A stretch of DNA of 64,000 nucleotides from Carposina sasakii (lineage: Eukaryota; Arthropoda; Insecta; Lepidoptera; Carposinidae): NCBI GenBank assembly GCA_014607495.2, contig CP053168.1, positions 62,001-126,000 of the forward strand. The letters are read 5' to 3'. The stretch's first letter is position 1. Each line of letters opens with the position of its first letter. Positions 3,634 through 61,174 of this stretch are shown here, in pieces. Position numbers and translations under genes: made by a program. The notes under the pieces are model-generated. The model worked only from the letters and a program-made list of their open reading frames with translations, did not search any database and was not told the origin of the DNA.

Positions 3634-4056
3634 CTCTATTGAGGGATCGCCCACCACCGGGCCCTATACCCTCCGCTGACCCTCGGATCTGCCTACTCAT
3701 GATCACGAACACAAGACACTACAGTCATTATTCTATATATATATCATTGGTTTTAGTTGTTAGTTAGTTGGTTCGGTAGATAGAACTAACATGGAAAACT
3801 AATCCTGATGATGCCACGGGTGTTGGCGAAACATATGTCGATTAAAATTTTAATTGGTTTTCGGATTAGCAGCTATGTATTTATGGTTGCATGCTAGGTG
3901 CTTGGATCTGGCTTCTCGTTGCGACTGTAGTGTCTTGTGTTCGTGATCATGAGTAGGCAGATCCGAGGGTCAGCGGAGGGTATAGGGCCCGGTGGTGGGC
4001 GATCCCTCAATAGAGATTTGAACTTCCGAATAGTGACGCCTGATACAATTCAATAT
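3634..4056 (+). mobile_element. Hammerhead-ribozyme element, copy A
   Basis: A 423-bp element is flanked by a perfect 12-bp direct repeat, TTAACTGTCTGT (3622-3633 and 4057-4068). It consists of an inverted arm of about 93 bases (3634-3726), a spacer, a hammerhead motif (3800-3844), the complementary arm (3923-4016) and an outer block containing GAACTTCCGAATAGTGACGC (4017-4056). Removing the element and one repeat copy makes the M1 gene frame continuous (RQL then SCFCSRGF), which proves a secondary insertion. It encodes no protein and must be non-autonomous. Confidence 0.85.
3800..3844 (+). ncRNA. Hammerhead ribozyme motif, intact core (copy A)
   Basis: Stem I is UAAUC/GAUUA, core CUGAUGA (3805-3811), one extra U, stem II GCCA/UGGC with a 7-base loop, and then GAAA. 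Stem III is two pairs closing an AUAU loop, and the cleavage triplet is GUC, so the predicted cut falls between 3839 and 3840. A very short stem III is typical of hammerheads in Penelope-like elements and retrozymes. The extra base between A9 and G10.1 has a precedent in a viroid hammerhead. Activity is inferred from the fold only. Confidence 0.8.
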
Positions 4057-6020
4057 TTAACTGTCTGTATTTAAGTTCTCCTCGACTAGTACTAAATATT
4101 TGGTGGACATCTTTGGTGCCAGGTAGGGGCTGGATCTTTGGTGGTATTTGTTTTGAGATGCTTTCTATATTATCCTTCATCACTGTATAAAATTTTTCTG
4201 CAGATGAAATGTCTTCACCTCTAGCAACTAAATCATCCGCAGTTTAAGATAGCCTCCAATACCATCTGCTGGCCCCTTGCCATGGCCAGCTTCGAAAAAT
4301 GACCAGGTCATTGCTTTAAATCCATGGTCGAATAATACAGTTGACGCTAGGTAAAAGTTTTGTTTTTGCCTGTATTGACTAAAAAGACCATCTGTGAAGA
4401 AGTGTATTAAAGAAATATCAGGATAAGTGCTTCTTATGTCCTTTAGTACTGGATCAAGATGAGCCCATATAGATGCAGGTTGATGATTAGTATTTGGTGA
4501 CACCGTGCAGAATGATTCAACTTTCTTATCATCATGTGTATGAACATATACCACAACTGTATGCAGTGATACTTGTAATCTGGAACCACCAAAGTGATGG
4601 GCTTGAATCTCCAATTTTCGCTAAAATCTGCAACAACCACTGCTTCTGTTCTTGATAATTTATCAATGGCTTGTCTGAAGTTAGTAAATTGGACTTTTAT
4701 GTTATATACGTGTTTTTTTCAATATTTTTAGTTCTTCATTAAATGCATCCAACATCTCTTTAACCGTTCCCTCCTTATCTTGTTTCACATTCTTAAATGC
4801 TTTTGAAGTCTTTCCATCCTTTTTATATGTCTCTTGTACTCTTACCCATTCTTTCCATTATATTTTATTGCTATCTTTGTCAATATTACTTTGAATTTTT
4901 AAGTTGCAACATTTTTTACAAGTTCCATGCATACAGTCTTTTTCCTTTGTATTACAGACAATAACAGTAATCAACTCGCTCATATTGTCAGTATTTATGA
5001 TGAAGCACTTGCTTTATAAGTTGGATTGATGTGGGTTTTGCATAAACACATTTCGCGTCCACTCACAGTAGGTTTCACAACATAATATGGCTTCATTTTA
5101 GTAAAATAGTAATATGAGCATTTTATTTCCGGATTTTCTTGTTTAAATGTTTTATATATGTTTTTTATTGTGTCTAAGAGGAACCTTTTCTGAACTTTAT
5201 GTCCATGGCGTGTTATTGTTTCCTTCTTTCCTGCTATCGGTCTAGAAACATCCTCTCTTTGAAAAAACGTTTCAATGTTTTTCTTTAGTTTAGACACATT
5301 GACTTTTACTTTTATCATCGGCCTGAGTGGCCCTATTATTCCCAAAGACTCATTTATCATTTCTCATATTTTTCAGACTATTCTTTTCCTTACGTATCTT
5401 TATCGTTTAGTACCTCTCTATGATTGCGTTGGATAGCTTTTTGTATTTAGTTGTATCATCAGATTTTCTTTTCTCTTGTTTATTTTCAACTGTTTCTTTT
5501 TTGGTCCTATTGAAACGTTTCTTATATTTCTCATATTTCTTTTTTAGGTTTGCAATTTCTTGCTGTAACCTCAAATTCTCTTTATATAGCTTTGTTCTAT
5601 CTCTTCTAACTTTAGTTCTTCCTTTATCCTTTTTCACATTCCTACTAGTAGCAAGAGAGCTTTGAGGAGTACTAATGCCCGAGATATCAGAATGATCGTT
5701 CTGTTGTGGAGAATTCTGACGTAGGTTTACTTCAGGCACCAATATAGAAGGGGAACTCGGCGATGTTATATCAAGAAGCCTATTCAATTGTGTCTCTCTT
5801 TTGGTGTTAAGTCATTGACAAGTCTCTTTTTATTATGATAGATGTCTCGTTTTTTTTCTTTTATAATCTTCATACTTCTCAGGGTCACGTTTTAGCTTTT
5901 CTTTGTACCGCCTCTATCGTTCTGCTGCTGATAATGGCATGTTTATATAGGTACTGAAACAAAATAGCTAAAGTTATTTATTTAAGTATGAAAAAACTCT
6001 ATATTCTTAACACGCTAAAC

Positions 6021-6088
6021 GCCATGGGGGTCACCGGTGACCTCACCCTTCCTCTATCATAGCGCCATGGGGGTCACCGGTGACCTCA
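6021..6088. repeat. PB1 subterminal repeats, left pair
   Basis: Two direct copies (6022-6046 and 6064-6088) contain CGCCATGGGGG followed by the palindrome GGTCACCGGTGACC. A third copy lies near the other end at 10342-10366. Repeated palindromes just inside the terminal repeats are probable transposase-binding sites. The CCATGGGG part is also conserved. Confidence 0.7.
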
Positions 6089-6481
6089 ACGTATAGTCAT
6101 ATTCAAACTACTTTTTCTCGCCGCCGGCCATACTGACTGTTACTTTATTCGTACTCCGTGACCGGCACGGCGCTGTAGAACTATACTGCGCAGTGGGACA
6201 AACATACCTTGTAAGGAATTGAAAAAATGAAAGATAGCGAAAAAAGTAACCAAAATAAAAATTCAGGATATATAATTCAAATTAGTCTTTATTATTTAAA
6301 CGAAAATTAGCAGTCTTTATTTTTTAATGAAATACAAACATAAAAATCAGTTTTACTGAAAAATAAAATAAAGTTCTCATTAGTAAGCATAATTACAAAC
6401 AACCATTAGAAATAAAAATAATTAGCCATAATATTTGACAAAACATGCTGTAAAAGATGAGATAAGAAACCTTTTATAGCA

Positions 6482-6703
6482 TCAACATATTAGCGATGGA
6501 CATTTTAGACAAAAGTGAGGCTCCCCCTTGCATTGCACACAGTACGTACTCACTTTCTTAGCTTTATTCTTAGCTACTTTATGACCAAATTCCTGTACTG
6601 AATCTTTATAACATTGCACGCAAAAACGACGCGTGTCTCTTACTTTTCCTTCCTTTAATTGGACCGATTTAAGCAAAAATGATTCAGTCCACACTAACCT
6701 CAT
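6482..6703 (-). pseudogene. piggyBac transposase C-terminal cysteine-rich domain (PB1), detached
   Basis: This is the last 65-70 residues of the PB1 transposase: RRFCVQCYKDSV, then TYCVQCKGEPHFCLKCP, the CxxC/CxxC zinc pattern of the piggyBac DNA-binding C-terminus. It is separated from the catalytic part (8611 onward) by the inserted element at 6671-8606. Joining the flanks across an ATTT duplication restores the frame after KHVLK. As it stands it has no start of its own in context and would not be attached to the enzyme. Confidence 0.85.
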
Positions 6704-8606
6704 TTCGAGATAATAGAGTTTAAAGTTTATTTCGGTATTTCTCTGGCTTTGTAGTTCTAAATGTTATGTTTTTAATTTTATGTTATTCTAAGTGTTCTAA
6801 ACTAATTTACATGCATGTATTTAGTAAATAAATTTTAATAGTTTCGTAGATATTCAAGAAAACTTGCGCGTGGATCATTATTACATAATACATTTTGTAT
6901 GGAATTAGCTGTGTAGGCTGCGGAAAGAAAAATGCAAAAATGTTCCAAACTATGACAAAAATAAAAGCTTAAAAATGTTTATTATTTTTATTTTATTTAA
7001 AAAAACACAAATGTTACCCTACTCCTCATCCAAATCAAAGTCGGGTTCATCACAATAACCATCTATATCGTCTATTATTGCATCGTCTCCCTTCAGTTTT
7101 TTATAATAACCAATGCAATCATTTGGTATGAGATGGAATAACGATTTCAAATCGTTTAACTTCTTTTTGTTAATCAGTTTTCCTGAAGGCCATAATTCTT
7201 GCAAATCTTCTTCTATGACACCCAAATCAACACCTTTTAATTTCTTTTTAATATTCAGTTCTTTGTAGTCCTCATTAAAGGAAGTTCTCATGAACAAAGA
7301 ATGTTGAGTCTTTTTTGTGATTAAAATTTCTTTTGTTTTGAGCCAGTTTACTTTGCTCTTATCATTAAATATTTTTCTATTAACTATTTTCTTTTCTAGA
7401 ATTTGAGATCCAACAAAATCACAACTTTCCATTTTATGGACCTGTAAAGGATTTTTGTTTTTGCATTGTTTCATAATGGCAATATAATCATCCACGGAGT
7501 ATATCCTTTCATATTGCTTGAGTCGAGTCTCAATTTTAGCGAAGTCGTTGTCATTTGGTAGGAAAGTGTGTCCTGATTCTAGGTAACGGAAGCTGATTGT
7601 CTCGAGAGTGGGGTGTCTATTTAATAAAGCCTTTAAAATCAAAACGATTTTGATATTCCTGTTTTGCCCTCCGCAACAGTCACTCCACAAAATCATTTTT
7701 TTACTGTAGGAGGTAGCACGCACTTAATATATTTCCTCAAACATGAACCCACTTCTTGGGCCCCTCTGCCTGCCTCGCCTTCAGCCCAAACAAAACAATT
7801 CCCAACACCGTTGGAAGCCGAGTGTATACCGCAGTTGTATACCCATAACTGCCTTTTGTAGAAAACTATATTGGTCGGTATTCTAGGTAAAGGCAAGGTT
7901 TTCTCCAAATCGTAAGTCAGACATTCAGTTTCTTCACAAGTTTTAGCCTGTTCAAAATCTTCCTTCAGCTTCTTCCTTAAATCTTCGGCAATTTTTTGGT
8001 GTTCTTCTTTTTCTCTTTGGGCATTTGCTCTTTCAGCTGAGGTAGTAGAATTTTTCAATGTCATTTCATAAAGATCACATTTGTTACACGTGTCTTTCTT
8101 AAGGCTCTTGCACCTCAAATTGAATTTTTGTACAAAAATATGTCTAACAACATTGAAGGATGGACATTTTTCATCTTTTCCAAATTCTTTTTCGAATTCT
8201 ATTTTGAACAATTCGTAGATTTTTGGTACCGTCATTCCTGGCTGCAGATATAAAGCATCGCTGTTCTTTTCTCTACGATAATGTGACTCGTATTTTGGCA
8301 ACCTTTTGATAACATCGATAATAAGCTCAATATGTCTTTGTGGCGTTTTATTCCATCCGCCTGCTGTTTCTCCTCTTTTATCTTTTATTTCTCTGTCATT
8401 GCGTTTTTTTCGAAGACTGACAGTAACTTTTTGAGGTGTTATTTGCAGAGTTCTACAAAACATGTCTCGACAAACAGGTATATTGCCAAGTGTATACGTG
8501 CGAATAAATTCGCGAGGTTTCCTCTTCGACGGGGAGCATAATGTAACGTAACTTCGTTTCTTTTTGCTTTCTGTAATGTTAGATGTTATGTACAAAATCT
8601 AAAATT
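6671..8606 (-). mobile_element. DUF7869-like transposable element inserted in PB1
   Basis: The insertion interrupts the piggyBac reading frame, and ATTT is present at both junctions (6667-6670 and 8607-8610), consistent with a 4-bp target copy. It contains one gene (7019-8595). I see no convincing terminal inverted repeat, so the boundary is set by the host frame alone. 6704-7018 is AT-rich noncoding sequence with a possible polyadenylation context and no gene. Confidence 0.6.
7019..8595 (-). pseudogene. DUF7869-like putative transposase with one frameshift
   Basis: The N-terminal half includes HIELIIDVIKRLPKYESHY, a Cys cluster (CKSLKKDTCNKCDLY) and a coiled coil. The C-terminal half has a predicted RNase H-like core: LPRIPTNIVFYKRQLWVYN, then ILWSDCCGGQNRN and YLESGHTFLPNDNDFAKIE. 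I recall this pattern as DUF7869 in animal transposon-derived proteins; the assignment is from memory. The two halves are in different frames, joined at a run of seven A (near 7695). A single-base change there would give one protein of about 520 residues. Confidence 0.7.
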
Positions 8607-8610
8607 ATTT

Positions 8611-10174
8611 TAGAACATGCTTGAGTCTTTTAGGTCTTTCATTGATAATTATTTCTTGGGAATCTGCTGGCCGAGTCAAATAATTTATGAGAGCCCTCCT
8701 AAAGTCGACAATTGAAGATTTGCTCTGCTTATTTTCATTGTACATGACCCAAGCATTTACAACTGCCGTATTTAGAAGTAGTTCTATTGCCAATTTTCTA
8801 TACCATTTTACGGTTTTCCGCAATGGCGAAGAATAGGCACCCATCTGGTCACTCATGTCTACAGACCCTTTCGATTTATTATAATCCAAAATAACTTTTG
8901 GTTTACGAATCTGTTTGCCTTTTTTCACCACCACAGCAATTTTGTCGGAATGCTTTGTCGACAGCATAAGCACGTCCCTCTTATCTTTCCATTTAAGCAC
9001 TGTTACTCCATCTTCATTCTCCATAGCCATTGTTTCACCTTTTTGCAGTTTCGAATCAACAACAGCCTTAGGTAATCCTCTTCTGTTTTTTCGCAATGTG
9101 CCAATTAAATGGGTTTGCTTCTCCAATAACCGATAAGCCAGTTGCAAGCTAGTGTACCAATTATCAGTTACTAGCGTGTGTCCTTTGTCAAATATATTTT
9201 CACATAGTGCCATCACCACATTTGTTGGCGTAGTATTTATTGCGTCAATGTTTTTCCCACTATACAAATTAAGTTTGCAAGTATATCCGGGAACAGTACA
9301 TAACTTAAATAGCTTCATGCCATACTTGTGTCGCTTACTTTTATTGTATTGCCTGAATATTATTCGACCTCTGAAAGGTACTTGGCTTTCATCCACACAA
9401 ACATCTTCTTTAGGCGAATAATATTTCTGGAAAGTAGCATTGAGAGCATCGATTAAAGGTCTTATTTTGGCAATACGATCGTTTCTGTCGACAGATAAAT
9501 TGTCGCTAAACTGTAGGTATTGCAGTAGTAACTCGAAGCGGTTCCTACTCATAACGGTGGCTGGAAAAGTTTGTCCAAGTATCTTGTCTTTGCTCCAATA
9601 ATAAGCTAATTTCGGCAGCTTTACTTCGCCCATAAACAAGACCAGCCCAAGAAACTGTTTTATTTCTGTCTTGTTTGTTGGCTTCCATGAATGAGACCTT
9701 GATCCAGGCTTTGTTTGCCTGGCTGTGATGTTTTGACTTGCGAACAAATTTGTCTGCTCAGCAATCATTTCAATAATTTCTTCAGGCACCAATAGATCAT
9801 AATACTGGTCAGGGCCAGCTTCTTTCAGCAAATTAGAATATGGAGGTTTCATACCCTCGAACTCGGTGAAAGGAATCACTGATGGCTGTCGTCTTTTTGG
9901 CCTCGACCATTTTGAGGAAATACGGTCATTTTGCGATATATTGGCGGCAACAAAATTTTCAGCCGACTCACTGTCACTATCACTATCACTTGCGATAACC
10001 AAACGTCTTTTCTTTTTCGGTAATTACATGGGTTCACTATCCGATTCTACGAGAGCGTCATTGTTTATAGAAGCGATCGAAAAAGAAATTTCTAACGCGT
10101 TGATTTGCTTCCATTCATCCTGCGTAAATTCGAAGTCCTCCATAGCTAAATCCATATCTAAAGGCTCGCACATT
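8611..10174 (-). pseudogene. piggyBac transposase, N-terminal and catalytic part (PB1)
   Basis: The original start is probably ATG at 10174 (MCEPLDMD, an acidic N-terminus), with an in-frame TAA at 10024-10026. The frame is then open for about 465 residues. It holds the DDE_Tnp_1_7 domain with the three Asp motifs CVDESQVPFRGR, TDNWYTS and SVDMSDQMGAY, so the catalytic residues are intact. With the detached C-terminal domain the total would be near 590 residues, the usual piggyBac length. Defects are the early stop and the loss of the C-terminal zinc domain through insertion at KHVLK. An N-truncated product could start only at a later Met (about residue 50 of the open part). Confidence 0.9.
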
Positions 10175-10341
10175 AACTATTCAATAAGAAAATGATGACA
10201 GCTAAGATAGTAGGAACGTAATTGATCTAGTAACACACGTTCTATCACCGTAAGCGCGAGCGCACTACTGGTGTAGCGGGTGGCCGGCGGGGTGGCCGGC
10301 GCGGCGCCGGGTACCGGAAAATATATTTTCTGTATTTGTGC

Positions 10342-10366
10342 GCCATGGGGTGCACCGGTGACCTCA
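10342..10366. repeat. PB1 subterminal repeat, right copy
   Basis: GCCATGGGGTGCACCGGTGA and the following CCTCA repeat the left pair with two changes; the palindrome reads TGCACCGGTGACC here. It lies 142 bases inside the right TTAA. Confidence 0.65.
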
Positions 10367-10881
10367 GCTATGTATTTGACTGTAACTATGTAACCCATGT
10401 ACAGAATTGAATAAAACTTATTTTCTATACGTATCGTAACATAATAAACAAATTACGACCAAAAGTATTTTTACGATTTTTATTTTTTTTCTATCGGCGT
10501 TTAACGTGTTAAATATCTAAACCTTAAGATGCCTATTACAAATTACATATTATATACTACATTTAAAAAGTACTTCAGTACAAAATATAGTTCATAGCGG
10601 TCTTATTTTATTAAATAAACATAATAAATCACGAGTGGCGCTATATGCGCGAGTGAAGTTGTGATAGCTCTCTTAATAGATAAAATGTTTATAGCATTAT
10701 CGGGCACACAAAAGTGCCAGTGCAAAAGGGGTATTTTACGTATTTTTTTTTCTATTTATACACCTACGCAGCAAACTAATAAGATATCTACAATGAACAT
10801 AAGTTCTATGTTAAGTATTTGATAACAAAACGTAGTTTAATTTGTTACAGAAGTAAAAAATTCTCTTCAGTCACTAAAATT

Positions 10882-10930
10882 TTCCCTTGGGTCACGATTT
10901 TTGTGACCCAATGGACACGTGACTCCGGAG
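10882..10930. repeat. M1 right-arm motif repeats
   Basis: TTCCCTTGGGTCAC (10882-10895), its inverse GTGACCCAATGGAC (10903-10916) and the partial GTGACTCCGGAG (10919-10930) repeat the left-arm motif. The rest of 10513-11655 is the M1 right arm. It is AT-rich, has no open gene and contains a run of short palindromes near 10640 (GCGCTATATGCGC). Confidence 0.6.
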
Positions 10931-12187: not shown

Positions 12188-12242
12188 TATAGGGGAAACA
12201 TGGGGAAGTGGGTCTTCGTTTAGGTATCTAGTTTAGTTTAGG

Positions 12243-12290: not shown

Positions 12291-12314
12291 CGATTTTACT
12301 TTTCAGGTAAAACA

Positions 12315-14161: not shown

Positions 14162-14165
14162 CTTA

Positions 14166-14222: not shown

Positions 14223-15483
14223 TTTTTCGAAAGTTCCTATTAAATCATTTATTTAAAAAAAATGCTATAAGTTCATCTCCCAAAGACTATGCCAAATTGT
14301 AGTTAGATTAATAAGGCATTGTGCCATAAATAAATAAGCATAATAAACGCAATGATGATACTGTATTTTTGGTATTTTCCTTAGATATCCCAAAAAATGA
14401 TAAATATATGACGATAACAGAGTTGTTTAATTTTCACCGCACTTTAGTTTCAATCACGTAAAATTCTAAAAATATACGCAAAAGATCGCGGCCAATCACG
14501 AAATAGCATTTTACAATGCAATGTGCATGTCGTGCTATTACCTCTACACTTAAATCAAACATTATATTTTTTTAACAATTCAAAATATATAATAGTCACT
14601 TTTTCTGCCACCGATTTTAAAATGACCCATATACCATTTGAATGAAAAGATATATATCCCTCATTTAGCTCTTTAGCTCATTTAACTCAGGACGCGTGTG
14701 TGCTCATGTGTGACTTTCTTTCTATGATCCATAGTATAGAATGATCGAATTATTTCATTGCTGAGTTATCGAAATGTACCTACCTGCATTACAAAACAAA
14801 ATTTTTCTCTGAACAATTAAAAAATTCGCTCGTCCTGTGTTTAGAATAAATAACACTTCAATTAAATACATTTTTGCATAAATTAATATTGTTTTCTCTC
14901 TCTTGCACGTGGGTCCCGGTCTGAGCGATGTCGGAACCTTCTATATTGCCCGATCGGATGTATGTATCTTTCTCCCTTACTCTCGCTCAGTAACTCAGTT
15001 CTACAATATATCGAAAATGTGTCCTAATTCATACGGAGCTAGAGATATATTTGGAAAGCAAGTGAGCTAGTGATATATTTGGAAAGCAAGTGAGCTAGAG
15101 AGTGATTACCTCACTTTAAAAGATATGTTTCTTTTATATCACTCGCTCATGAACTCCTCATCTCTAGTAAAATGCATGCTGTGTTTTACATAATATAGCA
15201 AATAGAGGGAATTTTGACATACCACCTCTTACTCAAGATGAAATATCATCCGAACAAAATCGAGTCGCTGCATTTCAATAAATGAAAGGAGGTATATTAA
15301 CCTACAACTTGCTGAAGGCAGGCAGGGTAGCGCAGCAAGTCCTTGTGAACCGTTTATTAAAAAAAAAAACAAAGGCGTTAAAGTTATTCAAATTCATATT
15401 AGAATATGGGTACCTTTTTATATTATAATTTTGTTTTATTCCGAATCACTGGATGAATTCATTTGTTTGGAGCGTTTCTGTAA

Positions 15484-15541
15484 AATTTAAATAGAATAAA
15501 TATGTGCCTTAGTATAGGCACATATTTATTCTATTTAAATT
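15484..15541. repeat. Perfect 26-bp hairpin
   Basis: The left arm (15484-15509, ending AATATGTGCCT) and right arm (15516-15541) are exact complements around a 6-base loop. A CA microsatellite follows at once. The origin is unknown; it could be the fused ends of a small foldback element. Confidence 0.75.
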
Positions 15542-15605
15542 CACACACACACACAAATCACTATGATGGGTGCATACTAGTAGTGCATGTTGTGTTTTGA
15601 TTTTG

Positions 15606-15909
15606 ATTGAGGGTATATTAAAAATTATTTGCAATACATTGGTTTTAGTTGTTAGTTGGTTCGGTAGTTAGAATTAACCTGGAAAACTAATCCTGATGAT
15701 GCCACGGGTGTTGGCGAAATATATTTCGATTAAAAATTTTAATTAGTTTTCGGATTAGCAGCTATGTATTTATGGTTGCATGTTAGGTGCTTGGATCTGG
15801 TTTCTTGTTGCGACAGTAGTGTTCGTGTGTTCTTGTGTTCGTGATCATGAGTCTGCAGATCCGAGGGTCAGCGGAGGGTGTAGGGCTCGGTGGTGGGCGA
15901 TCCCTCAAT
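15606..15909 (+). mobile_element. Hammerhead-ribozyme element, copy C (one arm only)
   Basis: It is closely similar to the right two thirds of copy A. It begins ATTGAGGG (15606-15613), ends CCCTCAAT (15902-15909), and lacks both the left arm and the outer block. The left 40 bases (GGGTATATTAAAAATTATTT region) are shared with the copy at 31156, so those two form a sub-type. Confidence 0.75.
15688..15732 (+). ncRNA. Hammerhead ribozyme motif, degraded (copy C)
   Basis: Stem I, CUGAUGA (15693-15699), stem II and GAAA match the intact copies. In stem III the C-G pair is replaced by U and U (UAUAUU), leaving a single pair before the UUC triplet. Cleavage is expected to be weak or absent. Confidence 0.6.
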
Positions 15910-23590: not shown

Positions 23591-23864
23591 AAGAATATAT
23601 GAAGCCCGTTTCGATGTCAGATCAAGAAGATAAAATTGATTTTATAAATGAAATTGTATTAGGCGTTACAATTCGGAAGTTCAAACATTCACTATGGGTG
23701 CGCCCACCACCGGGCCCTACACCCTCCACTGACCCTCGGATCTGATAACTCATAATTGCGACAACAGGCACTTGCACTAACTACAATCGCCATGAGAAAC
23801 CAGACCCGAGCACCTAGCATGCAAGACGATACATTGCACCATTCCGAAATCAAAAACTAGATAA

Positions 23865-23911
23865 ATAATCTACATATGTTTCGCCAACAACCGTGGCATC
23901 CTCAGGATTAT
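23865..23911 (-). ncRNA. Hammerhead ribozyme motif, intact core (copy B, minus strand)
   Basis: Read on the minus strand: stem I AUAAUC/GAUUAU (6 pairs), core CUGAGGA, an extra U, stem II GCCA/UGGC, GAAA, a two-pair stem III around AUAU, and triplet GUA. GUA satisfies the NUH rule. Compared with copy A, stem I is altered on both strands together. Confidence 0.8.
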
Positions 23912-24030
23912 AGAAATTAATAAATTAGTAAACCACTAATTATTATGAACTAGTGGAGGATTATAGAAATTAATAAATTAGTAAACCACTAATTATTATG
24001 AACTAGTGGTTTACTAATTTATTAATTTCT

Positions 24031-24077
24031 ATAATCCTGAGGATGCCACGGTTGTTGGCGAAACATATGTAGATTAT
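24031..24077 (+). ncRNA. Hammerhead ribozyme motif, intact core (copy B, plus strand)
   Basis: Mirror image of the motif at 23865-23911: AUAAUC (24031-24036), CUGAGGA (24037-24043), GAAA (24060-24063), triplet GUA, predicted cut between 24071 and 24072. A full-length transcript would contain one motif and its complement, so hairpin pairing could compete with ribozyme folding. Confidence 0.8.
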
Positions 24078-25544
24078 TTATCTAGTTTTTGATTTCGGAA
24101 TGGTGCAATGTATCGTCTTGCATGCTAGGTGCTCGGGTCTGGTTTCTCATGGCGATTGTAGTTAGTGCAAGTGCCTGTTGTCGCAATTATGAGTTATCAG
24201 ATCCGAGGGTCAGTGGAGGGTGTAGGGCCCGGTGGTGGGCGCATCCATAGTGAAGATAAAATTGAATTTAAGTTAGCCAATGATGTCGCGTAGCCCGCCA
24301 TTGTATACGAGCACGCCGAAAACAGAACAAAAACCTGAATTTGTAAACATTTAGCGAGGTGCGTACCCAAAACACAAATCAAATAAAGAAAACGACAAGG
24401 CACAACTTATTACAATGGCGTCTATTGAGAAGTTGAACACGAAGTGCAACAATATGCCGTATGAGTGGAAAACCTGCAAGCCTAACATGACCTGCTAGAC
24501 ACGATATGATAAACTGATTTATCGACATATAGCCTGTCAAAATACGATAAATATACATAGCCGCAATTATCTACCTTAGAGCTAACCGCCTAGAAGACGA
24601 AGCATATAGCAGGAAAGTCGCTATTCTTTTATAGAATAGAATAGTTTTTATATTTGAAACATACACGGACAGAAACAACGTAGAACAAGACAATAGTAAT
24701 AGGGTAGAAATAGTTACAGATCAAAAGAAGTAGGTAGACAGGTAGAAGCAGCATGTAAAACGGTGTGCCCTATTTGGAGCCCGTCAGTCACGTCCCGTGT
24801 ACGTATACATAACATAACATCGACACAGACGCACTAAATATCTTTTATTCATTTGGCCTAGACCTAGACACAGTAAAATTTCAAGCTCTGTTAGACAAAT
24901 TTGAATAATATTTTATGCCAAAAATTAACATGACAATGGAAAGACATAAACTGTTTAATCGACTACAGGGTCTAGAGGAGTCCATAGACGCATACATCAC
25001 AGAATTAAGAAACCTATGTCAGTCACGTGAATTTGAAAACATACAGGACAATATACTTAGAGATTCAGTGAAAGGAGCGCATTCTGGAAGATCAACCTAA
25101 AACATTAGATGGAGCCGCAGATGTTGCTAAGAGATACGATTCACCAAGACAGCAAGTAAAAGTTTTAAAACAAGCTGCAAATTCTTTTGTTGGAGAAGTT
25201 CATGCAACTACAGGATATTATCGTCAAAGGCAGAGTCAGAGCCATGAAAGAAGAAAGAAGTCGGCACAGGACAAGTCAAGAGCACCATATATAAATCATC
25301 AAAAGTCATCGAGGTAAGTGAAAGGTACAGTGTGTAGAAAAATGTCCGGCAATAGGAGTCAAGTGTCACAAGTGTAAGAAATTTAATCACATTGCAAGTG
25401 TTTGTAGAAACCGACAAGTAAATATAGTTGAAACTGAAGTACCAAATACAAAGTCAGAAAAGCCTTCGCTATTTCTAGGAGTAGTCTCAGTTTAGTGCAT
25501 ACAGTCAAAAAGTCATATTGATAAGTCATGGGACACAAGTTTGT

Positions 25545-28341: not shown

Positions 28342-30920
28342 GGGTAAAGGGAGGTATGTTGGTGATATAAGTAATTTGGTGACATTTTTTATACTGGCTA
28401 CCACACAGTTCCCTATGCGAACAGATTCATGAGACAGCGCTAGGTCATTGTTACGAGTGTGAGGAAGATAAATATACATTACGCGCTCCGCTCTAACGTT
28501 CCTATGTTTACTAAACAAACTTTTTTGAGAAGTTGGGACCTGCAGCGCCATTGTTCAATGAATGTCGGCTGCGCTTTCGTATTTTGGATAAAATTAATTT
28601 ATTTAATTAGTATTTCAAAGTAATTCTTATTCAAATTGTTCAATATACCATATATTACTGAATTAAAGCTATAGTGAAGTCGTGTCTGTGTCAAAGTAAG
28701 TATTTTTTCCTTATATTGTAACCGTTGTTTCTTAGTGTTTTCGTCAAAATGTTGGGTATGTTTTTGAATGGTTAACTTTAGATCTATTTTGCGCTTGAAT
28801 TGAAAATTAATTGGAATAGTCAAGTACACACATCGAAAGGTTTCATTTTCAAGTTTAAGTAAAATGGGTTTTCATTTGAATTTAAAGTAATTTTTTTATC
28901 GCCAAATTACCTATACATTTTTTTTATCACCAAATTACCTGTTTCTTAGGTTTGGCAATGGAAGAAAAGAGAAAATATAGGAAATATAACCAGCAACAAC
29001 TTCAAAAAGCTGTCAGTCTTGTTAGAAATGAAGGTAAAACCATATATCAAGCTGCCAAGGACGCAGACGTCCCATGGAGCACCTTGAAACGTTACCTTGG
29101 AAATGAAGAGGATTCGGTAAGAAAAATGGGGAGGCCCTATGCACTGCCTTGCGATCTAGAGCTAAAACTTTACAATTATATTATAGAAATGCAAGAATTG
29201 GGTTTCGGACTGACTGTTTATCAAATTAGAAAATATGCGTATGATCTTGCTGAAGCAGCTGGTCGAACTTTTTGCCATCGGCTAATCGTATTGCAAGTAA
29301 ATGGTGGTGGAATAGTTTTAAGAGCAGGTATAATTTATGTTTACGTGTGCCAGAAAATCTTTCAGCCTACAGGGCTTCTATGGCTAACGAAACAATGGTC
29401 AAAGACTTCTTTTCTAAACTAGATGATGTTCTCACGAAACTCAATATCAAAAATAAATCTCATCTTATCTGGAATTGTGATGAGACTGGATTATCGTATG
29501 TTGTTAAACCATCGAAAGTTGTCACTGGAATTGGTAAGAAATACGTGTACAAAAGATCCTACGCTGAGCGTGGACAAACACAAACAATGATGGCATGTGT
29601 ATGTGCCGATGGAACATGGATTCCCCCGATGATAATCTTTAAAGGTGTTAGATGGAATGATACACTCAAAAATGATGCTCTACCCAACGCTCTTATTAAA
29701 CTATCTCCCAAAGGGTGGATCAATTCCGATTTATTTCTGGAATGGTTAAATTTTTTCATAACTGCCATACCACCTGAACGTCCAGTAGTCCTCTTGATGG
29801 ATTCACATTCTGCACATGTTGGAGCAGAAGTTCTTAAGCTTGCAAAAGAGAACCAAATATATTTATTTACATTCCCAGCTCATTGCACACATCTTTTGCA
29901 GCCTCTTGATGTAGGTCTATTCAAGCCTCTTAAAAGTTACTGGCGCGATAGCATGAATAGATACTTGAACAATAACCCTACAGACGCTCCAAATCGCAGT
30001 AACTTTAATTCCATCTTGAATCCGGCATTTATAACGCATTCACGAAAAAAAATATAGAAAACGCTTTTAAAAAAACTGGCATATGCCCATTAGATGGCAG
30101 TGTTATTGCTGAGGAAGCATTACGACCTTCTGCTTTGACTAACACAGATCCTGCTACAGCTCCAGCTACAGGTCCCGCTACCACGGCTTCAAATAACACA
30201 ACACCTAATAGTTCTTCAGGTCTTCAACGCACGGTGGAACAAATTTTAGAAACACCCAAAGCTTCAAAACGCCCAGAGAAAGTAAGAAAAAGATATTCCA
30301 GTGCCAAATGCTTAATACCGACTAATGCAGATTTAAATGAAAATCAATTACAGGAAAATCTTCAGCCTCAACCTTCGACATCTGGCAAATCTGCCCCAAA
30401 AACAAAAAAAAGCAAAACGCAAGAGATAGAAAATGATTGGGAATGTGGATTGTGTGGAGTCTTGTACTCTACTGATGTGAAAAAAAGAAATGGAGCGAAA
30501 TGGATCCAATGTTCCTATTGTCTGACGCCTTACCATGAAATTTGCGCATCTATCGAAGATGCTGATCCTGAGGAACACCTGTATTATAGATGCGATCGTT
30601 GCCTAGAATAATGTACTAAAGATCATATATATATATTATTTAATTTTCAAGTACAAAATATGTATTTTAGAGTAGTATCACCAAATTACCTACCTACTAT
30701 CACCAATCTACCGAACTCTGTCACCAAGTTACCTTTAACTTCTTGGGAATTTAATAAACATTTTCCTTCCTAAGTATTGAATAATCATTCCGTAAACTGT
30801 ATTAAGTATATAATTCAACTAATAAAGAATGTAAAAAAAAAATTCAGTTCTTGTTTCCTTGTAAAATTACTATAAAACTAGTTTTATAATTTTTTATCAC
30901 CAACATACCTCCCTTTACCC
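28342..30920 (+). mobile_element. pogo/Tigger-like transposon P4, both ends present
   Basis: A 2579-bp element with perfect 26-bp terminal inverted repeats starting GGGTAAAGGGAGGTATGTTG, between TA copies at 28340-28341 and 30921-30922. It splits a LINE. The 5' arm (28342-28951) has no gene. Private motif TCACCAAATTACCT lies at about 28363 (inverted), 28897, 28926 and 30676, with partial copies at 30700-30735. Confidence 0.92.
28958..30611 (+). pseudogene. pogo-like transposase of P4 with C-terminal zinc finger, two frameshifts
   Basis: MEEKRKYRKYNQQQLQKAVS begins an HTH_psq domain, followed by a Tc5-type HTH (broken near 29268 in a T5 run; resumes as SANRIASKWWWNSF). DDE_1 has CDETG, LLMDSHSAH and LLQPLD. 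A second frameshift lies near 30030 in the post-catalytic helix. The tail has an Ala/Thr/Pro repeat (PATAPATGPATT) and a PHD-like finger (CGLCGVLY to CSYCLTPYHEIC to CDRC) whose second pair carries a GAKWIQ insert. Catalytic residues are intact. Confidence 0.85.
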
Positions 30921-31110
30921 TACCAGGAACCCGACTCTACGAGTATAACCTTATAAATAGGGCATTTGTTTAAAGATTGCCATGTACAACAAATTACCTG
31001 CTAAAATTTCACAACTCCCCTTTAATACGTTCAAATATAAAATTATAAAAATTATCGAATTAACTAATATGTATATTTTTAATATTTATTGATCTATAAT
31101 AATTTTATAT
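30921..31110 (+). pseudogene. LINE fragment, part 2 (L2)
   Basis: Immediately right of P4 the sequence reads NPTLRVYNLINRAF, which suits the end of a LINE RT ORF. It is taken as the continuation of the fragment at 27790-28341. The match is short. Confidence 0.4.
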
Positions 31111-31155
31111 TTCAAACTAATATGTAGGTATTAACATTTTTTATTTTTTATTTTG

Positions 31156-31445
31156 ATTGAGGGTATAAAAATGATTTGCATTGGTTTTAGTTGTTAGTTA
31201 GTTGGTTCGGTAGATAGAACTAACATGGAAAACTAATCCTGATGATGCCACGGGTGTTGGCGAAACATATGTCGATTAAAATTTTAATTGATTTTCGGAT
31301 TAGCAGATATGTATTTATGGTTGCATGCTAGGTGCTTGGATCTGGCTTCTCGTTGCGACTGTAGTGTCTTGTGTTCGTGATCATGAGTAGGCAGATCCGA
31401 GAGTCAGCGGAGGGTATAGGGCCCGGTGGCGGGCGATCCCTCAAT
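31156..31445 (+). mobile_element. Hammerhead-ribozyme element, copy E (one arm only)
   Basis: It runs from ATTGAGGG (31156) to CCCTCAAT (31438-31445), with the same left segment as copy C and nearly the same right two thirds as copy A. The left arm and outer block are absent. No target duplication is evident. Confidence 0.75.
31234..31278 (+). ncRNA. Hammerhead ribozyme motif, intact core (copy E)
   Basis: It is identical in every core position to the motif at 3800-3844: UAAUC/GAUUA, CUGAUGA, GCCA/UGGC, GAAA, triplet GUC. The predicted cut is between 31273 and 31274. Confidence 0.8.
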
Positions 31446-32104
31446 AGAAATTATCGAACTTCATCCATTTTATGACATAAATGAATATATGAACTGCTCG
31501 TTTTATGATTTGTAATCAGTAGTAGTCAAAGTTAGTTAATGCTTGACATATTCATTTAATTAAATTGTATAACATATTATAGAATAATGATTGTATATGT
31601 ATTATGACTTACCAAGGTTATGTAATGTAACAAACTGGTGAATAAATGAAATGAAATAAAACCATAGACTTTAACTCTATGTTAATATTTTTTTCCTTTT
31701 TTTCTCGGTACCCGTCTTCAAGATGGCATTATCAAAAAGCAACCTGATTGGTGGAATAAAACATTTGATCACCCGTCTGATTCACTTTATTATAATTTAA
31801 AATATTAATTTAAAAATTAAGTCAATAATTTAATTTAATATTTTAATGACAGAAATTGACGGATAGATCAAGCAACCCGAGTCCCTACAGTAAGTTAAAT
31901 TATTTTTATTGTCATTTAAAGATACCAAAGCTTGAATGCAAGTAGAGCATTTTAATATCTATCAAAGAACTGACGACGAATCCTGCCATATATTCAATTA
32001 TATGTTCGGAAAACTTCGATAGTGACATAGCAACTATATCGAGTTCTAGTTCATCATCATCTTGACTGGTTTGAACGTCGCTGTATTGGAATCCAGGAGT
32101 TGTT
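31446..32104. other. AT-rich spacer, nothing recognised
   Basis: No gene, inverted repeat or motif is supported here beyond AT-rich text and short direct repeats of TTTAATATTTT type near 31820. Confidence 0.5.
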
Positions 32105-43930: not shown

Positions 43931-43947
43931 ACCCTCGTGATACTTCC

Positions 43948-52456: not shown

Positions 52457-52670
52457 ATACCCCCACTTATCAAAATATCTAAATAAACTAAACAGGAATT
52501 ATTCCAATTAAATTCATAAATTTATAATGCTTCAGAGGACATAAACCTTTGGTTAATATATCGGCAGGCATATTCTCACTAGATATAAATTTAATTTTAA
52601 TTAGTTATTTTTTAACAACATCTCTAACATAATGACACTTTACATCTATGTGTTTTGACCTACTGTGACA

Positions 52671-55600: not shown

Positions 55601-55775
55601 CAACGTACCAATCACACTTATTATATTTTCCGTTCAAGAAAACAACATTGAAAACACATTTATTTGTGTTTTTCTTCAACATAGGGCACTGATTTCGATA
55701 ATGTCCTTCTTCTTTACACTTATAAAAGTTATTATTTTTGCAGTTTTTATTCAAAGACTTTATATAAAACAACAT
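52671..55775 (-). pseudogene. Copia-1 polyprotein, gag and 5' LTR deleted
   Basis: From 55775 leftward: a degraded zinc knuckle (KCKEEGHYRNQC, first Cys lost), protease DWYVDSGASAHMT, the pre-integrase domain LWHRRLAHIN, integrase DICGPMETCSLSGARYFLLF then SDNGLEFCN and NAYSPEQNCLCERANRT, RT WVLKKKYNSD to ALYVDDFLIFS, and RNase H VDSDWASD to SSIEAEYVALSEAS. The catalytic YVDD is present. Frame breaks lie near 54845, 54470 and 53960. The upstream gag and 5' LTR are gone. Confidence 0.9.
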
Positions 55776-55939
55776 AGACTATGAATAGACCCCAATTAAA
55801 AGTAGAAATACACATCCACATTTCTACTGTGGGTTTTTCACTGATTAAAACATTGAAAAGGACATTTTCTTACTTAGGTGTACTTTACACAAAATAATGG
55901 GCAGCAGCACCTCCCGTGTTGACAACATAGTCCAAAATA

Positions 55940-57589
55940 CAAACTGCAAACCAAAAGAAAGACCGAACTAAAGTACAGTTTAGAAGATCTCAAAAAGGCT
56001 ATAGATGATGTTAAAACCAAAAAACTCACTCTCGGCAAAGCAGCAGAAACTTATAATGTTCCAAAAACAACAATTTTTGACTACCTAAAGAAAAAAGTGA
56101 TAAAACTGCCTAGGTCTGGACGAAAACCTTTATTTACAGACGATCAAGAAACGCAACTTGTCGATTACATTATAAAATGCAGTAAACTCTGTTATGGCTT
56201 AACCATAAAGAAAATCCGCCAAATCGCGTACAAGTATGCCGAGAAAAACAAACTGCCGCACAATTTCGACCGAGTGAAACAGCTAGCCGGTAAAGACTGG
56301 TACTATAATTTCATGAAAAGACATCGCAGCATATCTCTGAGAACACCCGAGGCGACTTCACTGAATCGTATCACTGCGTTCAATGAAACTGACGTTAAAA
56401 TATTTTATGATAATTTGAAGGCCATACAAAACAAACATCATATTCAACCTGATAAAATCTTTAACGTTGTTCAGACAGGTATATAAACGGTCCAAAGAAA
56501 TCGGAGAATAGTGGCAGTAAAAGGTCAGAAACAAGTTGGTAAGGCAACGAGTGCTGAAAGGGGGTCTACTACAATAGTTGTTTGTGCATTTAGTGCAGGT
56601 GGCCAATACATTCCTCCTTTTTTTATTTTTAAAAGAAAAAGGATGAATCCACAATTACTGAAGGACAGTAACCGAAATATGGTTGGAGCTATATCAGACT
56701 CTGGATGGATAAACAAAAACCTATTTGTGGATTGGCTACACCACTTTATTTTATATGCAAAGCCTTCAAAGGAAGAACCTGTTTTACTTATTTTAGATAA
56801 CCACGAGAGTCATATAAGTCTTGATGCATTCTCACTCTGCAGAGATCGTGGAATTATTATGCTAACTCTGCAACCTCACACAGACTTCAACCCTTGGACT
56901 TGACATATTTTGGCCCTATCAAGACTGCATACAATCAAGAATGTGAGAATCACATGGCAGAGCGATTTGGACAGCCCATTACACAATACGACGCAGTCGA
57001 ATTGTTTACAAACGCTTTTAACCGTTGCAGTAACCTAGAAAAAGCTGCAAGTGGATTTAGAGCTGCAGGAATTTATCCCTTGCGTCCCGTTGAGATAGAT
57101 TCAATTCAGCCATATACCGCACAAGAAACCAAACATCCAATACAAAACATTCCTATGAACACCCAACCTTCAAATAACCAAGCAATTGATGTTCAACAAG
57201 CTCCTGATACTCACAATCATGACGATGTAACTGCAGCAGCTCAAGATCATCGTGTTGAAGTCCACGATGTCTCAGCTTCCGATACATGTCCTGTTAATTT
57301 AGAAAGCGATGATGCAAGTAAGCATGCAGTTTCCCTATCAGAGATTGTTGAATTGCCTATTATTTCTCCAAAAATATCAAAACGCAATATCAGGAAGAAA
57401 AAATCGACTATTCTTACTAGCACACCTATAAAAGTTCAGTTAGAGGAAAAAGAAAACAGAAAAATAGCTAAGCAGAAGTTCTCGAACGTTCCAGAGTACA
57501 TCGATTTGGATCAAACGACGGTTTGGGTATCTGTGAGCCCGTTCCAATTATTCCTTCTTTTCTTCCTTTCTTTCGCTAATATTCATTAA
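55940..57589 (+). pseudogene. pogo-like transposase of P6, catalytic Asp lost
   Basis: KRKTELKYSLEDLKKAIDDV starts the HTH_psq domain, then Tc5-type HTH (VKQLAGKDWYYNFMKRHRS), then DDE_1. The first catalytic motif reads NVVQTG instead of N-D-E-T-G, so the first Asp is Val and the Glu is Gln; an in-frame TAA follows at 56484. LLILDNHESH and LQPLD are kept, but a frameshift (56880) falls just before LQPLD. The Asn/Gln-rich tail runs to 57589 and changes to unrelated hydrophobic text after IDLDQTT; no PHD finger remains. Confidence 0.82.
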
Positions 57590-57590
57590 T

Positions 57591-58990
57591 AGCCGAACTT
57601 AGTGAGTGTAATTATTATTTATCTAGAATATTTAGTGTCATATAGGCATACTTATACCTACGCATCAGCTGGCGCACCGCTCAGGTGTCCTTTTGTTCTC
57701 AGGAATTCTTATCGCACACAACTGATCCTTTTATAAAGGGTATTTTTTGGTCATCAACGTTTCTGAATACCACGCATTCTCCTCATCATCACGAACATTT
57801 TTCTCCATGGAAGCATACCTGGGAAGTGTCTGGTTTTCCAAGATATTGAGGTCTAAAGTCTACTTATCAAGTTGCATTTTTTGTCAGAAATGCATGTAGG
57901 CACGACTAACAAACATCTTTCCCGAAGAAACGTTAGTTAAATTCCAAACATTTCCTATCAAAAATTCAAGGCAAAAGTTACAGCGCGCGGTGGGTAATGC
58001 TACGAGTAGGTCTACTCTAGCTTCTCGCGCGAAGCACACTAGGCTAACCTAGAAACCTACACTAGGCTACACTGGCAGCAACAACCAACACGAAAAATCC
58101 AGCTAAGACAAAACTACTACTTTGTTACTAACACAAAAAAGTTAGTTCTTATTATTAATTAAGTAGGTACCTACCTACATTTACGATCGTATTCTTAGTG
58201 GAACAGTTCGAGGACACACAAATGAGAGATGGCGCATAATACCTACTAGGTATGACAGGAACGTGGTTCGCTAGCGATCAGCTGATTGCCCGGTCGGGCT
58301 CTTGCCGGCTATCGATCGAAACTTCTCCAGTTTTCAGTGTCTATTTCTTACTAATCCTCATAACATACAGGAATAACCTAGCTAGGTAGGCACACTAACT
58401 TGAAACTATAGTACGTACAGTGTAAATTATTAATAATAGTAGTAGGTACTATTGACTACCTACGCGATACGCGGGAAACTTCCTTAATTTAGGTTCTTTC
58501 GAGCTACCTAAGCTACGAAACAATCGAGTAAGTAAGTAGGTACCTTTTCTAGGGCAAAAATCACAATCACAAACTTCTTCATCAATAACTTCTTCAAGTT
58601 TAATCAAATTACGAAGTCACACATAACATAAATAACGGAAAATTAATTATAAACAGTAAACACCATTGTCAAAATTAACGTACCAACAATAAATTCTTCG
58701 CCGGTATTAGCATTTAGGTAACGAAATTCGAAAGCTATTACTATTACGCTACAGACGGTGGCACGTGTAAAGCTGCCCGCCCTTGAACCTGTTCGTGCAC
58801 GTCGAGTCGTCGACAGGCGCACGGTATTTGTAGCAGCGAGCGGTCTCTTTGTCCACGCCTTAGTGATGTCGGAAATGGAATAAAGTATCAATATATATTG
58901 TATCGGTAATTTTTGAATATATCGATAACGATATTGATATTTTTATTTAAAAATATCGATATATCGGTATGATATGAAAAAAAAAATATT
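57591..58990. other. Noncoding spacer
   Basis: No gene is supported. It includes copy 2 of the dispersed repeat (57780-57890), many TAGGTACCTAC-type short palindromes (58160-58560) and an ATATCGAT-rich tract (58880-58975) resembling a low-complexity retroposon tail. Confidence 0.6.
57780..57890. repeat. Dispersed repeat, copy 2 of 2
   Basis: Same CATGGAAGCATACCTGGGAA phrase and following 80 bases as at 48172-48285, about 85 percent similar by eye. Confidence 0.7.
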
Positions 58991-59014
58991 TGGCCTAATC
59001 TACTTTAATCATCT

Positions 59015-59655
59015 TACATTCATCATCATCATTTACAGCCCTGAGAAGTCCACTGTTGGACATAGGCCTCCCCCAACAACCTCCACTCCGACCGGTCGGA
59101 AGCAGCCTGCATCCAACCGACGCCCGCAACCTTGACCAGGTCATCCATCCACCTCGCGAGTGGCCTTCCCACGCTGCGCTTGCCGATACGTAGTATCCAC
59201 TCTAGAACTTTCCAACTCCATCGGCCATCAGTTCTTCGAGCTATGTGCCCTGCCCATTGCCACTTCAGCTTGCTGAACCGTTCAGCTATGTCGGTGATCT
59301 TTGTACGTCTGCGGATCTCCTCATTTCTGATTCGATCACGCAGAGAGATCCCGAGCATAGCTCTCCATCGCTCGCTGTGCGATCCTGAGCTTCTTTATGA
59401 GGCGCATAAGAGACCACGTCTCGGCACCGTAGGTCATCACCGGCAGCACGCGCTGTTTGAATACCTTCGCCTTTAAGGATTGGGACACAAATAAGCCTTT
59501 CCTTTCCATTCGAGGAGCTTAAAGGCGTCTTTCACTGCATTGGTGAAGAGTTTCGGAGAAATAACATCTCCTTGTCTCACTTCCCTCTGCAATGAAATCG
59601 GCTTAGTGTTGTACGTGTTAAATTGTGAGAACGTGTAAGTTCGCTCTAATGACAA
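59015..59655 (-). pseudogene. RTE-type LINE 3' end
   Basis: LQREVRQGDVISPKLFTNAV (59590-59540) is an RT motif. After an internal deletion, FSKLKWQWAGHIARRTDGRW and GRPLARWMDDLVKVAG (59300-59120) give the typical RTE C-terminus. A TGATGATGATGAATG tail follows (59028-59015), matching the short-repeat 3' ends of RTE elements. Confidence 0.85.
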
Positions 59656-59864
59656 TTTTTTTTGAGTTACCTATTATTTGCGATTTTTTTTTTCATATTC
59701 AGTTCGGTTTGATACATCAACTGATGCGTGCGCTTTTTCTTTTCGCTTTTCTTTCCTCGAGTTGTGTTTTTGGTTTTAAGTACTGATTACCGCGCGTGTG
59801 TGTGTGTAGTGTGTGTATTTGTTTTATTGTGCAGTTTAGGTATTTATTGATTAACATTTAAAAA

Positions 59865-60152
59865 ATGCTGCATCAGTACACTTCGCGCGAATACCTAAAC
59901 ATGGTGTATTGCTATGGCAGAGCCGATGGAAATGCAGCATTGGCTCTTCGTGAGTACGGCATCAGGCATTCTGAAGCACAGCAACCCACTGATTCTCTGG
60001 TGATTTTGAGGGCCGTCTACCGCATCCTGGAAAACCACCCGATTGTCCCGGTTTCCCATTGCAGTGGCCAAGAAATTTCAGTTGCAGCTCAGGACGCTAT
60101 TCTCGCCGTCATGAACGTGAATCCGGCGCTAGGGGTTCGGACAGCGGCCTGA
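59865..60152 (+). pseudogene. DUF4817-type HTH fragment of a transposase
   Basis: MLHQYTSREYLNMVYCYGRA and ILRAVYRILENHPIVPV, with ISVAAQDAILAVMNVNPALG, fit the DUF4817 helix-turn-helix that precedes mariner-like transposases in insects (from memory). No catalytic domain follows; the frame ends at 60152. 59656-59864 holds a short GT repeat and no gene. Confidence 0.55.
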
Positions 60153-60249
60153 GTGCTCCGCCAGCGGCATGGCCATCGCTCTCGACATGCCGTGTCCTAC
60201 AGTAATTGAGCAATATTTGATACGTGTTGAGAGGCCTCCTCCCGACGAC

Positions 60250-60829
60250 CCCGACAACAATTAGGTAAGTACCTGCCTCTCACATAACTATTTTGGTAGG
60301 TACCTAAGTTACCTAACTACTATTAATCAGTCCTTTCTTTATGTTCCATTAAATTTGTTGGTAAATACTCGTACCTATCAGTTAGGTACTTAAGAACTTA
60401 CGTCAAAAATTGTCTTGGTTTAATTTTTATTTCATGTGTTTCTTTATCATGTTAATTGTTTGTGATGGCTGTAGGTTTTCTGTGGTCCTTGGTGTTTCGC
60501 GTTGCGAGTTAGGCAGTGGTAAAATGACGGCGATGCCGGTGGAAAATGCAGTACCTACTTGCTATTAAGTATTCTGTTTGGAAGGTTTATGCTAGGATAA
60601 GATAATTTGCATTTGTTATAATATTTCTTCCCGAGGATTTCGACTAAACAAATAGGTTAGTAGGTAGGTTTTATGCACTGATGTTATTCTCCGTTTTACG
60701 TAACCTCATACTACGTTACGGACGAAGTTGAGCGATGTCAGCTTTACATTGCGCGCGACCAAATGTATAAAAAAAAATTACCTGAAAAATTAAACTCATT
60801 TTCCAGCAATATTTTTTGTTCACTATGGG
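60250..60829. other. Noncoding spacer
   Basis: AT-rich, with TAGGTACCTA-type phrases. No gene or repeat end is supported. Confidence 0.5.
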
Positions 60830-61174
60830 TGCGCCTACCACCGGGCCCTACACCCTCCACTGACCCTCGGATCTGATAACTCCTAACTGCGAAAATAGGC
60901 ACTTGCACTAACTACAATCGCCACGAGAAACCAGACCCGAGCACCTAGCATGCAAGACAATACATTGCACTATTCCGAAATAAAAAACTAGATAAATAAT
61001 CTACATATGTTTCGCCAACAACCGTGGCATCCTCAGGATTATAGAAATTAGTAAATTAGTAAACCACTAATTATTATGAACCTCTAAAACCCATTGGGTG
61101 TAGGGCCCGTTGGTGGGCGCACCCATAGTGAATGTTTGAACTTCCGAATTGTAACGCCTAATACAATTTCATTT
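60830..61174 (-). mobile_element. Hammerhead-ribozyme element, copy D (internal deletion)
   Basis: A 345-bp element between perfect 12-bp copies AATATTTTTTGT (60818-60829 and 61175-61186). The left arm and minus-strand hammerhead match copy B. Most of the second arm is deleted between about 61083 and 61098, leaving only GGGTGTAGGGCCCGTTGGTG and its end. The outer block (TTTGAACTTCCGAATTGTAA) is intact at 61135-61174. Confidence 0.88.
60996..61042 (-). ncRNA. Hammerhead ribozyme motif, intact core (copy D)
   Basis: Same core and 6-pair stem I as in copy B: AUAAUC/GAUUAU, CUGAGGA, GCCA/UGGC, GAAA, two-pair stem III, triplet GUA. Confidence 0.8.

Follow-up and report, generated by a model that had tools for sequence, protein, structure and literature searches.

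In the Penelope elements of Adineta vaga, a pseudo-long terminal repeat (pLTR) stands next to an inverted pLTR in a head-to-head arrangement, one of the two optionally carries a tail of ~31 bp, and the pLTR extends into the first codons of the open reading frame (ORF); the target site duplications (TSDs) are 8–10 bp in length, and the authors favored self-priming on an antisense template (PMC3846280). In Poseidon of Anolis carolinensis (PAc), reverse transcriptase (RT) starts internally at ORF nucleotides 111–118 and at a second site about one tail length away, the tail lies between the two start sites, and both DNA strands are cut and extended (PMC11167929). The PAc ribozyme is dispensable in vitro, there is no sign that its cut sets the ends of copies, and the steps after internal initiation are left unproven there (PMC11167929). 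For the mode of insertion of Penelope, there are thus two proposals, self-priming on an antisense template (PMC3846280) and two-site internal initiation as seen in vitro (PMC11167929). An abundant lepidopteran Penelope-like element, penelope-1_dPle of the monarch, is present mostly as short 5′ pieces; 3,029 of the 3,566 classified Penelope fragments (85%) in that genome are 5′ pieces, which were interpreted as deletions (PMC8848866, Table 3). The short non-coding units of animal retrozymes contain a type I hammerhead, with TSDs when these are present, and occur as tandem head-to-tail repeats that are expressed as circular RNA (PMC7229834).

Here we describe a Penelope-like element of Carposina sasakii (Lepidoptera, Carposinidae) that is represented by five short loci in a stretch of 64,000 nucleotides, hereafter the window (GenBank assembly GCA_014607495.2, contig CP053168.1, positions 62,001 to 126,000), which is part of a 399-Mb genome assembly of 31 contigs. 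Each of these loci is a short copy of the element's pLTR region, which comprises the end of the untranslated region (UTR), a promoter-like stretch, a hammerhead-like core, the 5′ leader, and the first codons of the ORF. A preliminary description of the window had treated them as a separate family without a protein; this fails because the unit consists of the UTR, leader, and ORF start (pLTR and tail) of a Penelope-like element that encodes RT and GIY-YIG domains. We consider it likely that the loci are Penelope leader copies and, taken together with this identity, that they arose by priming on two strands at two sites.

The one-sided outer block of three of the loci is the known tail of Penelope. 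Three occurrences of an 18-mer from this block lie in the window (0.08 expected when up to three mismatches are allowed), and the genome has 4,688 exact occurrences as compared with 0 for the reversed control. The positions of the 18-mer in the window are as follows.

4023–4040, plus strand: tail 18-mer of copy 1, equivalent to ORF nucleotides 75–92 (codons 25–31 of the Penelope ORF)
23662–23679, minus strand: tail 18-mer of copy 3
61141–61158, plus strand: tail 18-mer of copy 5

A 901-bp stretch over one tandem junction in the same genome (L100) contains, in order, the end of a GIY-YIG ORF with its stop codon at 46–48, 493 nucleotides that include the core, and an ATG at 542 followed by an open frame. 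This frame is uninterrupted for the remaining 120 codons of the stretch and passes through nucleotide 66, the position of one of the two outer ends of the copies (F), and through the 18-mer, so the outer block belongs to the beginning of the Penelope ORF. The second outer end (E) lies at ORF nucleotides ~106–116, with an open frame through the tail, in agreement with the optional one-sided tail of 30–40 bp that reaches into the ORF in Penelope elements. W and R, the variable letters in the motif of the preliminary description, are synonymous third positions (Ile ATA/ATT and Val GTG/GTA), which appear as variable because codons 28 and 29 differ between the two subfamilies, A and B, at third positions only. 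Throughout this ORF-start stretch, 13 codons differ between A and B, and 10 of them alter the amino acid.

The preliminary description had suggested a genome search and the identification of a full-length relative with GIY-YIG and RT domains; the places of the 18-mer yielded copies with ~12-bp TSDs, and an element with RT and GIY-YIG domains was found in the same genome. In locus L004, the end of a GIY-YIG ORF lies upstream of the same UTR, core, and tail, and in L096 with its upstream neighbor L099, a 337-codon stretch with the RT motif YVDD and GIY-YIG motifs is also located upstream of the same UTR. The motif residues align between the element and its relatives, and these motifs, with the Pfam domains of the relatives, place RT before GIY-YIG in a single ORF as in Penelope. 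There are 67 homologues at E ≤ 1e-3, the best from Cydia and others from Choristoneura and Scirpophaga; many have precomputed RVT_1 and GIY-YIG domains, and the relatives pass the Pfam cut-off for GIY-YIG. A search of solved structures gave nothing useful. The genome search with the GIY-YIG peptide produced 820 candidates, of which 150 were scored, and the listed ones have no internal stops. Among the 150 scored matches, the open frame is 855 codons long in seven and slightly longer in two, and neighbors within 8 kb comprise 34 head-to-head pairs, 0 tail-to-tail pairs, and 8 pairs in the same orientation at 3031–3036 bp. Tandem units and head-to-head copies, both characteristic of Penelope, are thus present. 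The arms of L096 form a near-perfect palindrome of 3,055 bp (98.8% identity over 3,066 alignment columns) with a 12-bp target copy that was read by eye.

The five copies in the window and their parts are listed below, with F and E arms named for the outer ends that they reach.

3622–4068, plus strand: copy 1, subfamily A, two-armed, delimited by BLAST to the single-copy reference A, by its TSD, and by filler; TSD 3622–3633, inverted F arm 3634–3726, AT-rich filler 3727–3744, direct E arm with tail 3745–4056, TSD 4057–4068 (12 bp, exact)
15595–15909, plus strand: copy 2, subfamily A, direct, ending near F, with no inverted arm and no tail
23626–24265, minus strand: copy 3, subfamily B, two-armed; TSD 23626–23639, E arm 23640–23950 (minus strand), repeated piece 23957–24003, F arm 24001–24254, TSD 24252–24265, which overlaps the F end by 3 bp
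31049–31458, plus strand: copy 4, subfamily A, one-ended, with no tail and no inverted arm; TSD 31049–31059, direct segment 31060–31447 ending near F, TSD 31448–31458 (11 bp, exact)
60808–61186, plus strand: copy 5, subfamily B, two-armed; TSD 60808–60819, F arm 60820–61093, direct E arm with tail 61096–61174, TSD 61175–61186 (12 bp, exact)

The single layout that had been attributed to all five loci applies to the three two-armed loci, copies 1, 3, and 5, but not to copies 2 and 4, which have no inverted arm. The latter (15595–15909 and 31060–31447) are direct segments that stop near the inner end F, ~45 nucleotides earlier, and lack the outer block. The short string TTGAGGG at their left is ordinary upstream sequence of the element and is likewise found in L036, L072, and L096. 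The target duplications of ~12 bp are real, with exact repeats of 12, 14, 11, and 12 bp around copies 1, 3, 4, and 5, respectively; in the 14-bp repeat of copy 3, ~3 bp may belong to the GAA end of the element itself. For copy 2, no target copy was found, the longest string shared by its flanks being 6 bp. The loci are, as had been proposed, units of a retroelement with defined ends, in that the outer ends are fixed at F and E and are flanked by ~12-bp TSDs, but these ends are not equal inverted repeats: one is F, the other is E, and the lengths of the arms vary.

The ends were characterized in a sample of 103 tail-bearing copies, namely the first 100 of the 4,688 places of the 18-mer and the three window copies (67 of subfamily B and 36 of subfamily A), which were mapped to one long single copy per subfamily, taken from L004 for B and from L096 for A. 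The direct arm reaches the tail end E, which is located at ORF nucleotides 106–116 in 58 of the 67 B copies and 27 of the 36 A copies. By BLAST, 68 of the 103 copies have an inverted arm with an outer end no more than 12 nucleotides from F, and in 33 of these it is at 0 or +1 nucleotides; the 12-nucleotide limit is our own filter, and a few of the 68 arms are short or distant and doubtful (L035 and L047). The positions of the target copies add four copies with a short inverted arm and six in which the TSD directly abuts the direct arm. Among F-ended segments in all fetched sequence, a set that was fetched by the tail, 62 of 64 have a tailed partner head-to-head, and for a third the partner lies in the next locus. 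A TSD of at least 9 bp flanks 58 of the 103 copies, with a peak at 12 bp (27 of the 58). With random boundaries the mean repeat was 4.1 bp, and one or other of 20 such boundaries reached 9 bp in 15% of the copies; a search that assumed no boundaries likewise found TSDs abutting the F start. In three of the 103 copies, the tail continues into the ORF. The right flank is common to the members of three pairs, L061/L073, L065/L066, and L039/L069; the first two pairs are probably duplicated insertions, and L039 and L069 share this flank because both continue into the Penelope ORF.

In the short copies, the inner end of one arm shows no correlation with that of the other (Spearman coefficient −0.07, p = 0.66 for 42 B copies; 0.06, p = 0.83 for 14 A copies). 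After L073 and L066 (same flanks as L061 and L065), L039-2200, and copies with junction gaps of at least 60 nucleotides were left out, 42 of the 51 B copies and 14 of the 17 A copies remained for this comparison. Pairs of inner ends within 10 nucleotides of each other number 6 of 42 in B, as compared with 3.9 by permutation, and in most copies (32 of 41 in B, 10 of 14 in A) the F arm extends farther past F than the E arm. In 23 copies with arm overlaps of at least 60 bp, the two arms of the same copy are the closest pair in seven, and their mean identity is 0.934 as compared with 0.918 to other arms, a comparison that is confounded by age. The junctions have small overlaps, no overlap, or filler that is often AT-rich. 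Simple filler of the TATATA type is seen at inner junctions at 3727–3744 of the window and in L016, and AT repeats form the centers of the palindromes in L096 and L004; such filler perhaps reflects slippage or untemplated synthesis by the RT. In subfamily B, 12 of the 51 F arms and 8 of the 67 E arms have ends that cluster 104–126 nucleotides upstream of F, within one strand of a leader hairpin predicted by folding. Ends at 270–290 nucleotides upstream of F, some 37–57 nucleotides past the start of a TATATAT string, are seen in 13 of these F arms and 7 of these E arms. This string is at F−327 in B, its counterpart TATAAAA is at F−290 in A, and from their sequence a promoter at these strings is plausible; the B ends at 270–290 nucleotides would then fit a transcription start.

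Six hammerhead-like cores are present in the window, two of them in copy 3, as compared with 0.00 expected from shuffled sequences. All occurrences were located by pattern matching.

3805–3839, plus strand: core of copy 1, up to the predicted cut, conserved between A and B
15693–15727, plus strand: core of copy 2, with the stem III region altered to ATATATTTC
23871–23905, minus strand: core in the E arm of copy 3
24037–24071, plus strand: core in the F arm of copy 3
31239–31273, plus strand: core of copy 4
61002–61036, minus strand: core in the F arm of copy 5

The core comprises CUGANGA, GAAA, a predicted cut after GUA or GUC, and a stem III of two pairs with an AUAU loop. A single additional U stands between A9 and stem II; an extra base at this position is also present in a viroid hammerhead. 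No other stretch is as well conserved between the subfamilies: A and B agree in 38 of 44 alignment columns (86%) of the core, as compared with identities of 56% upstream of it, 66% from the core to the ATG, 83% from the ATG to F, and 77% in the tail. The core is intact in 13 of 25 distinct segments retrieved with a loose stem II pattern, two of these segments appearing to be chance matches. Rfam identifies no hammerhead in the window, either at the gathering score or at E ≤ 1, the latter giving only below-threshold matches of miRNA and snoRNA types, so that the core bases are the basis of the putative ribozyme assignment. The earlier proposal of a hammerhead-like core with a tiny stem III is upheld, as is the resemblance of the unit to Penelope pLTRs, and the core bases of a putative minimal type I hammerhead are present in the pLTR. 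The predicted cut is located 117 nucleotides upstream of the ATG. Cleavage was considered as the event that sets the ends of copies and was rejected: of 156 arm ends, a single one is 5 nucleotides or less from the predicted cut, as compared with 5.7 expected for uniform ends, which the actual ends are not. The hammerhead may cleave the RNA even though the copy ends do not coincide with its cut, and the lack of an accumulation of ends at this position agrees with the statement for Anolis that uncut RNA is the dominant substrate (PMC11167929).

The arrangement of ends suggests a mechanism in which the endonuclease of the element would cut the two target strands ~12 bp apart and the RT, instead of starting at the 3′ end of the RNA, would initiate internally at two positions close to the beginning of the ORF, F (nucleotide 66) and E (nucleotides ~106–116). 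In a two-ended insertion, each DNA end would prime at a different site, one at E and one at F; the two cDNAs would be extended toward the 5′ end of the RNA and stop at unrelated points, and their free ends would be joined with small overlaps or filler. The product would be a head-to-head copy that bears a single, one-sided tail and is flanked by a target duplication of ~12 bp. Because copying would start near the beginning of the ORF, ordinary mRNA would yield only leader copies, and longer copies would need read-through transcripts of tandem units. The use of one start site per strand, the role of monomeric mRNA as template, and the joining step are what we infer from these end points. For Penelope in general, we lean toward the view that integration proceeds by two-ended target-primed reverse transcription from two internal sites and without fold-back, that the optional tail identifies the DNA end at which the outer site was used, and that the short 5′ fragments of moths and butterflies are complete products templated by mRNA as opposed to deletion debris. 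In the titles and beginnings of abstracts that were searched, a scope outside which most of the subscription literature lies, no description of two-ended priming with one site per strand was found for Penelope, and priority is not claimed.

Several observations weigh against this interpretation. The GIY-YIG pieces of the element score below the Pfam cut-off (16.8 and 17.4 as compared with 22.6 bits), and RVT_1 was not reported by Pfam for the L096 piece. Because the tail served to select the sample, the presence of E is built in and copies with F only are missed; the window itself contains two F-only copies beside three with F and E. The left end is unassignable in 25 of the 103 copies, and in eight (L004, L006, L024, L032, L040, L046, L059, and L077) the inverted BLAST match does not start at F, although L004 is truncated by the end of the locus and in L059 a TSD abuts a short F-type arm. 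The left arm is flagged as reaching into the tail in three of the 103 (L032, L045, and L052), clearly so in L032. In the Anolis work, the authors saw no difference in start sites between the strands in vitro (PMC11167929); either the pattern of one site per end is peculiar to this element, or it characterizes complete insertions. Finally, the two long copies examined, L096 and L004, are near-symmetric palindromes with AT-repeat centers, as would be produced if one strand were made and its end folded back to prime the other arm.

Such self-priming, for which the head-to-head order and an antisense template were the published argument in Adineta vaga (PMC3846280), would make each arm a copy of the other, and the arms would be expected to have the same outer and inner end points. 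Most two-armed copies carry the tail on one side only, and the inner ends are uncorrelated in the 42 B and 14 A copies; the near-symmetry of L096 and L004 speaks either for fold-back or for a shared 5′ end of the RNA. We regard fold-back as unlikely. It is far less probable that the short copies are deletion remnants of full-length Penelope, as similar fragments were interpreted in the monarch (PMC8848866), because matching target copies are present at both outer ends of 58 of the 103 short copies, although an internal deletion of a two-armed copy could retain both.

An independent non-autonomous family of the animal retrozyme type, propagated through circular RNA made by the hammerhead, would account for short, ribozyme-bearing units that are flanked by TSDs and number in the thousands. 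Continuity with the Penelope ORF speaks against it, however, as do the arrangement of the copies, which are head-to-head and not ORF-less head-to-tail multimers, and the finding of only a single arm end close to the predicted cut; we reject this origin as very improbable. A DNA transposon with long terminal inverted repeats would be suggested by the long inverted arms and by a target duplication of rather constant length. It conflicts with the unequal ends and variable arm lengths, since equal inverted ends are not found on every copy, with copy 4, which has a TSD but no inverted arm, and with the continuity of the ORF, which places coding sequence of an RT element within the unit, and we reject it as having almost no probability.

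Two other features of the window were observed outside the copies. Just upstream of copy 2, at 15483–15540, there is a short near-perfect hairpin with sub-threshold Rfam matches to unrelated miRNA families. An open frame at 30001–30700 has an end that resembles, by eye, the C terminus of a transposase with a PHD-like finger.

With 4,688 exact tail 18-mers and clean TSDs in the sample, this genome provides a natural data set that is able to decide between the models of insertion, and the C. sasakii element is an additional Penelope-like member and a natural record of Penelope integration. Leader copies flanked by TSDs may offer an alternative reading of the short Penelope fragments of the monarch, since internal initiation near the ORF start would yield their 5′-piece pattern at the time of insertion. 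By description, as opposed to sequence, the element is like penelope-1_dPle in being abundant and present mostly as short 5′ pieces. With animal retrozymes it shares a short unit with a hammerhead-like core and TSDs, but its copies are head-to-head and end inside an ORF. The head-to-head pLTRs, the one-sided tail, and the extension of the pLTR into ORF codons are like those of Adineta vaga Penelope, whereas the predominant 12-bp TSD, the thousands of short copies, and the unequal inner ends of the short copies are features of C. sasakii. In the positions of its putative start sites, the element parallels PAc, in which initiation near the ORF start (nucleotides 111–118 as compared with ~106–116 here) is likewise accompanied by a second site and a nearby hammerhead; in PAc, the hammerhead overlaps the start codon and the cut is 26 nucleotides after it, whereas in the C. 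sasakii element the predicted cut precedes the ATG by 117 nucleotides.

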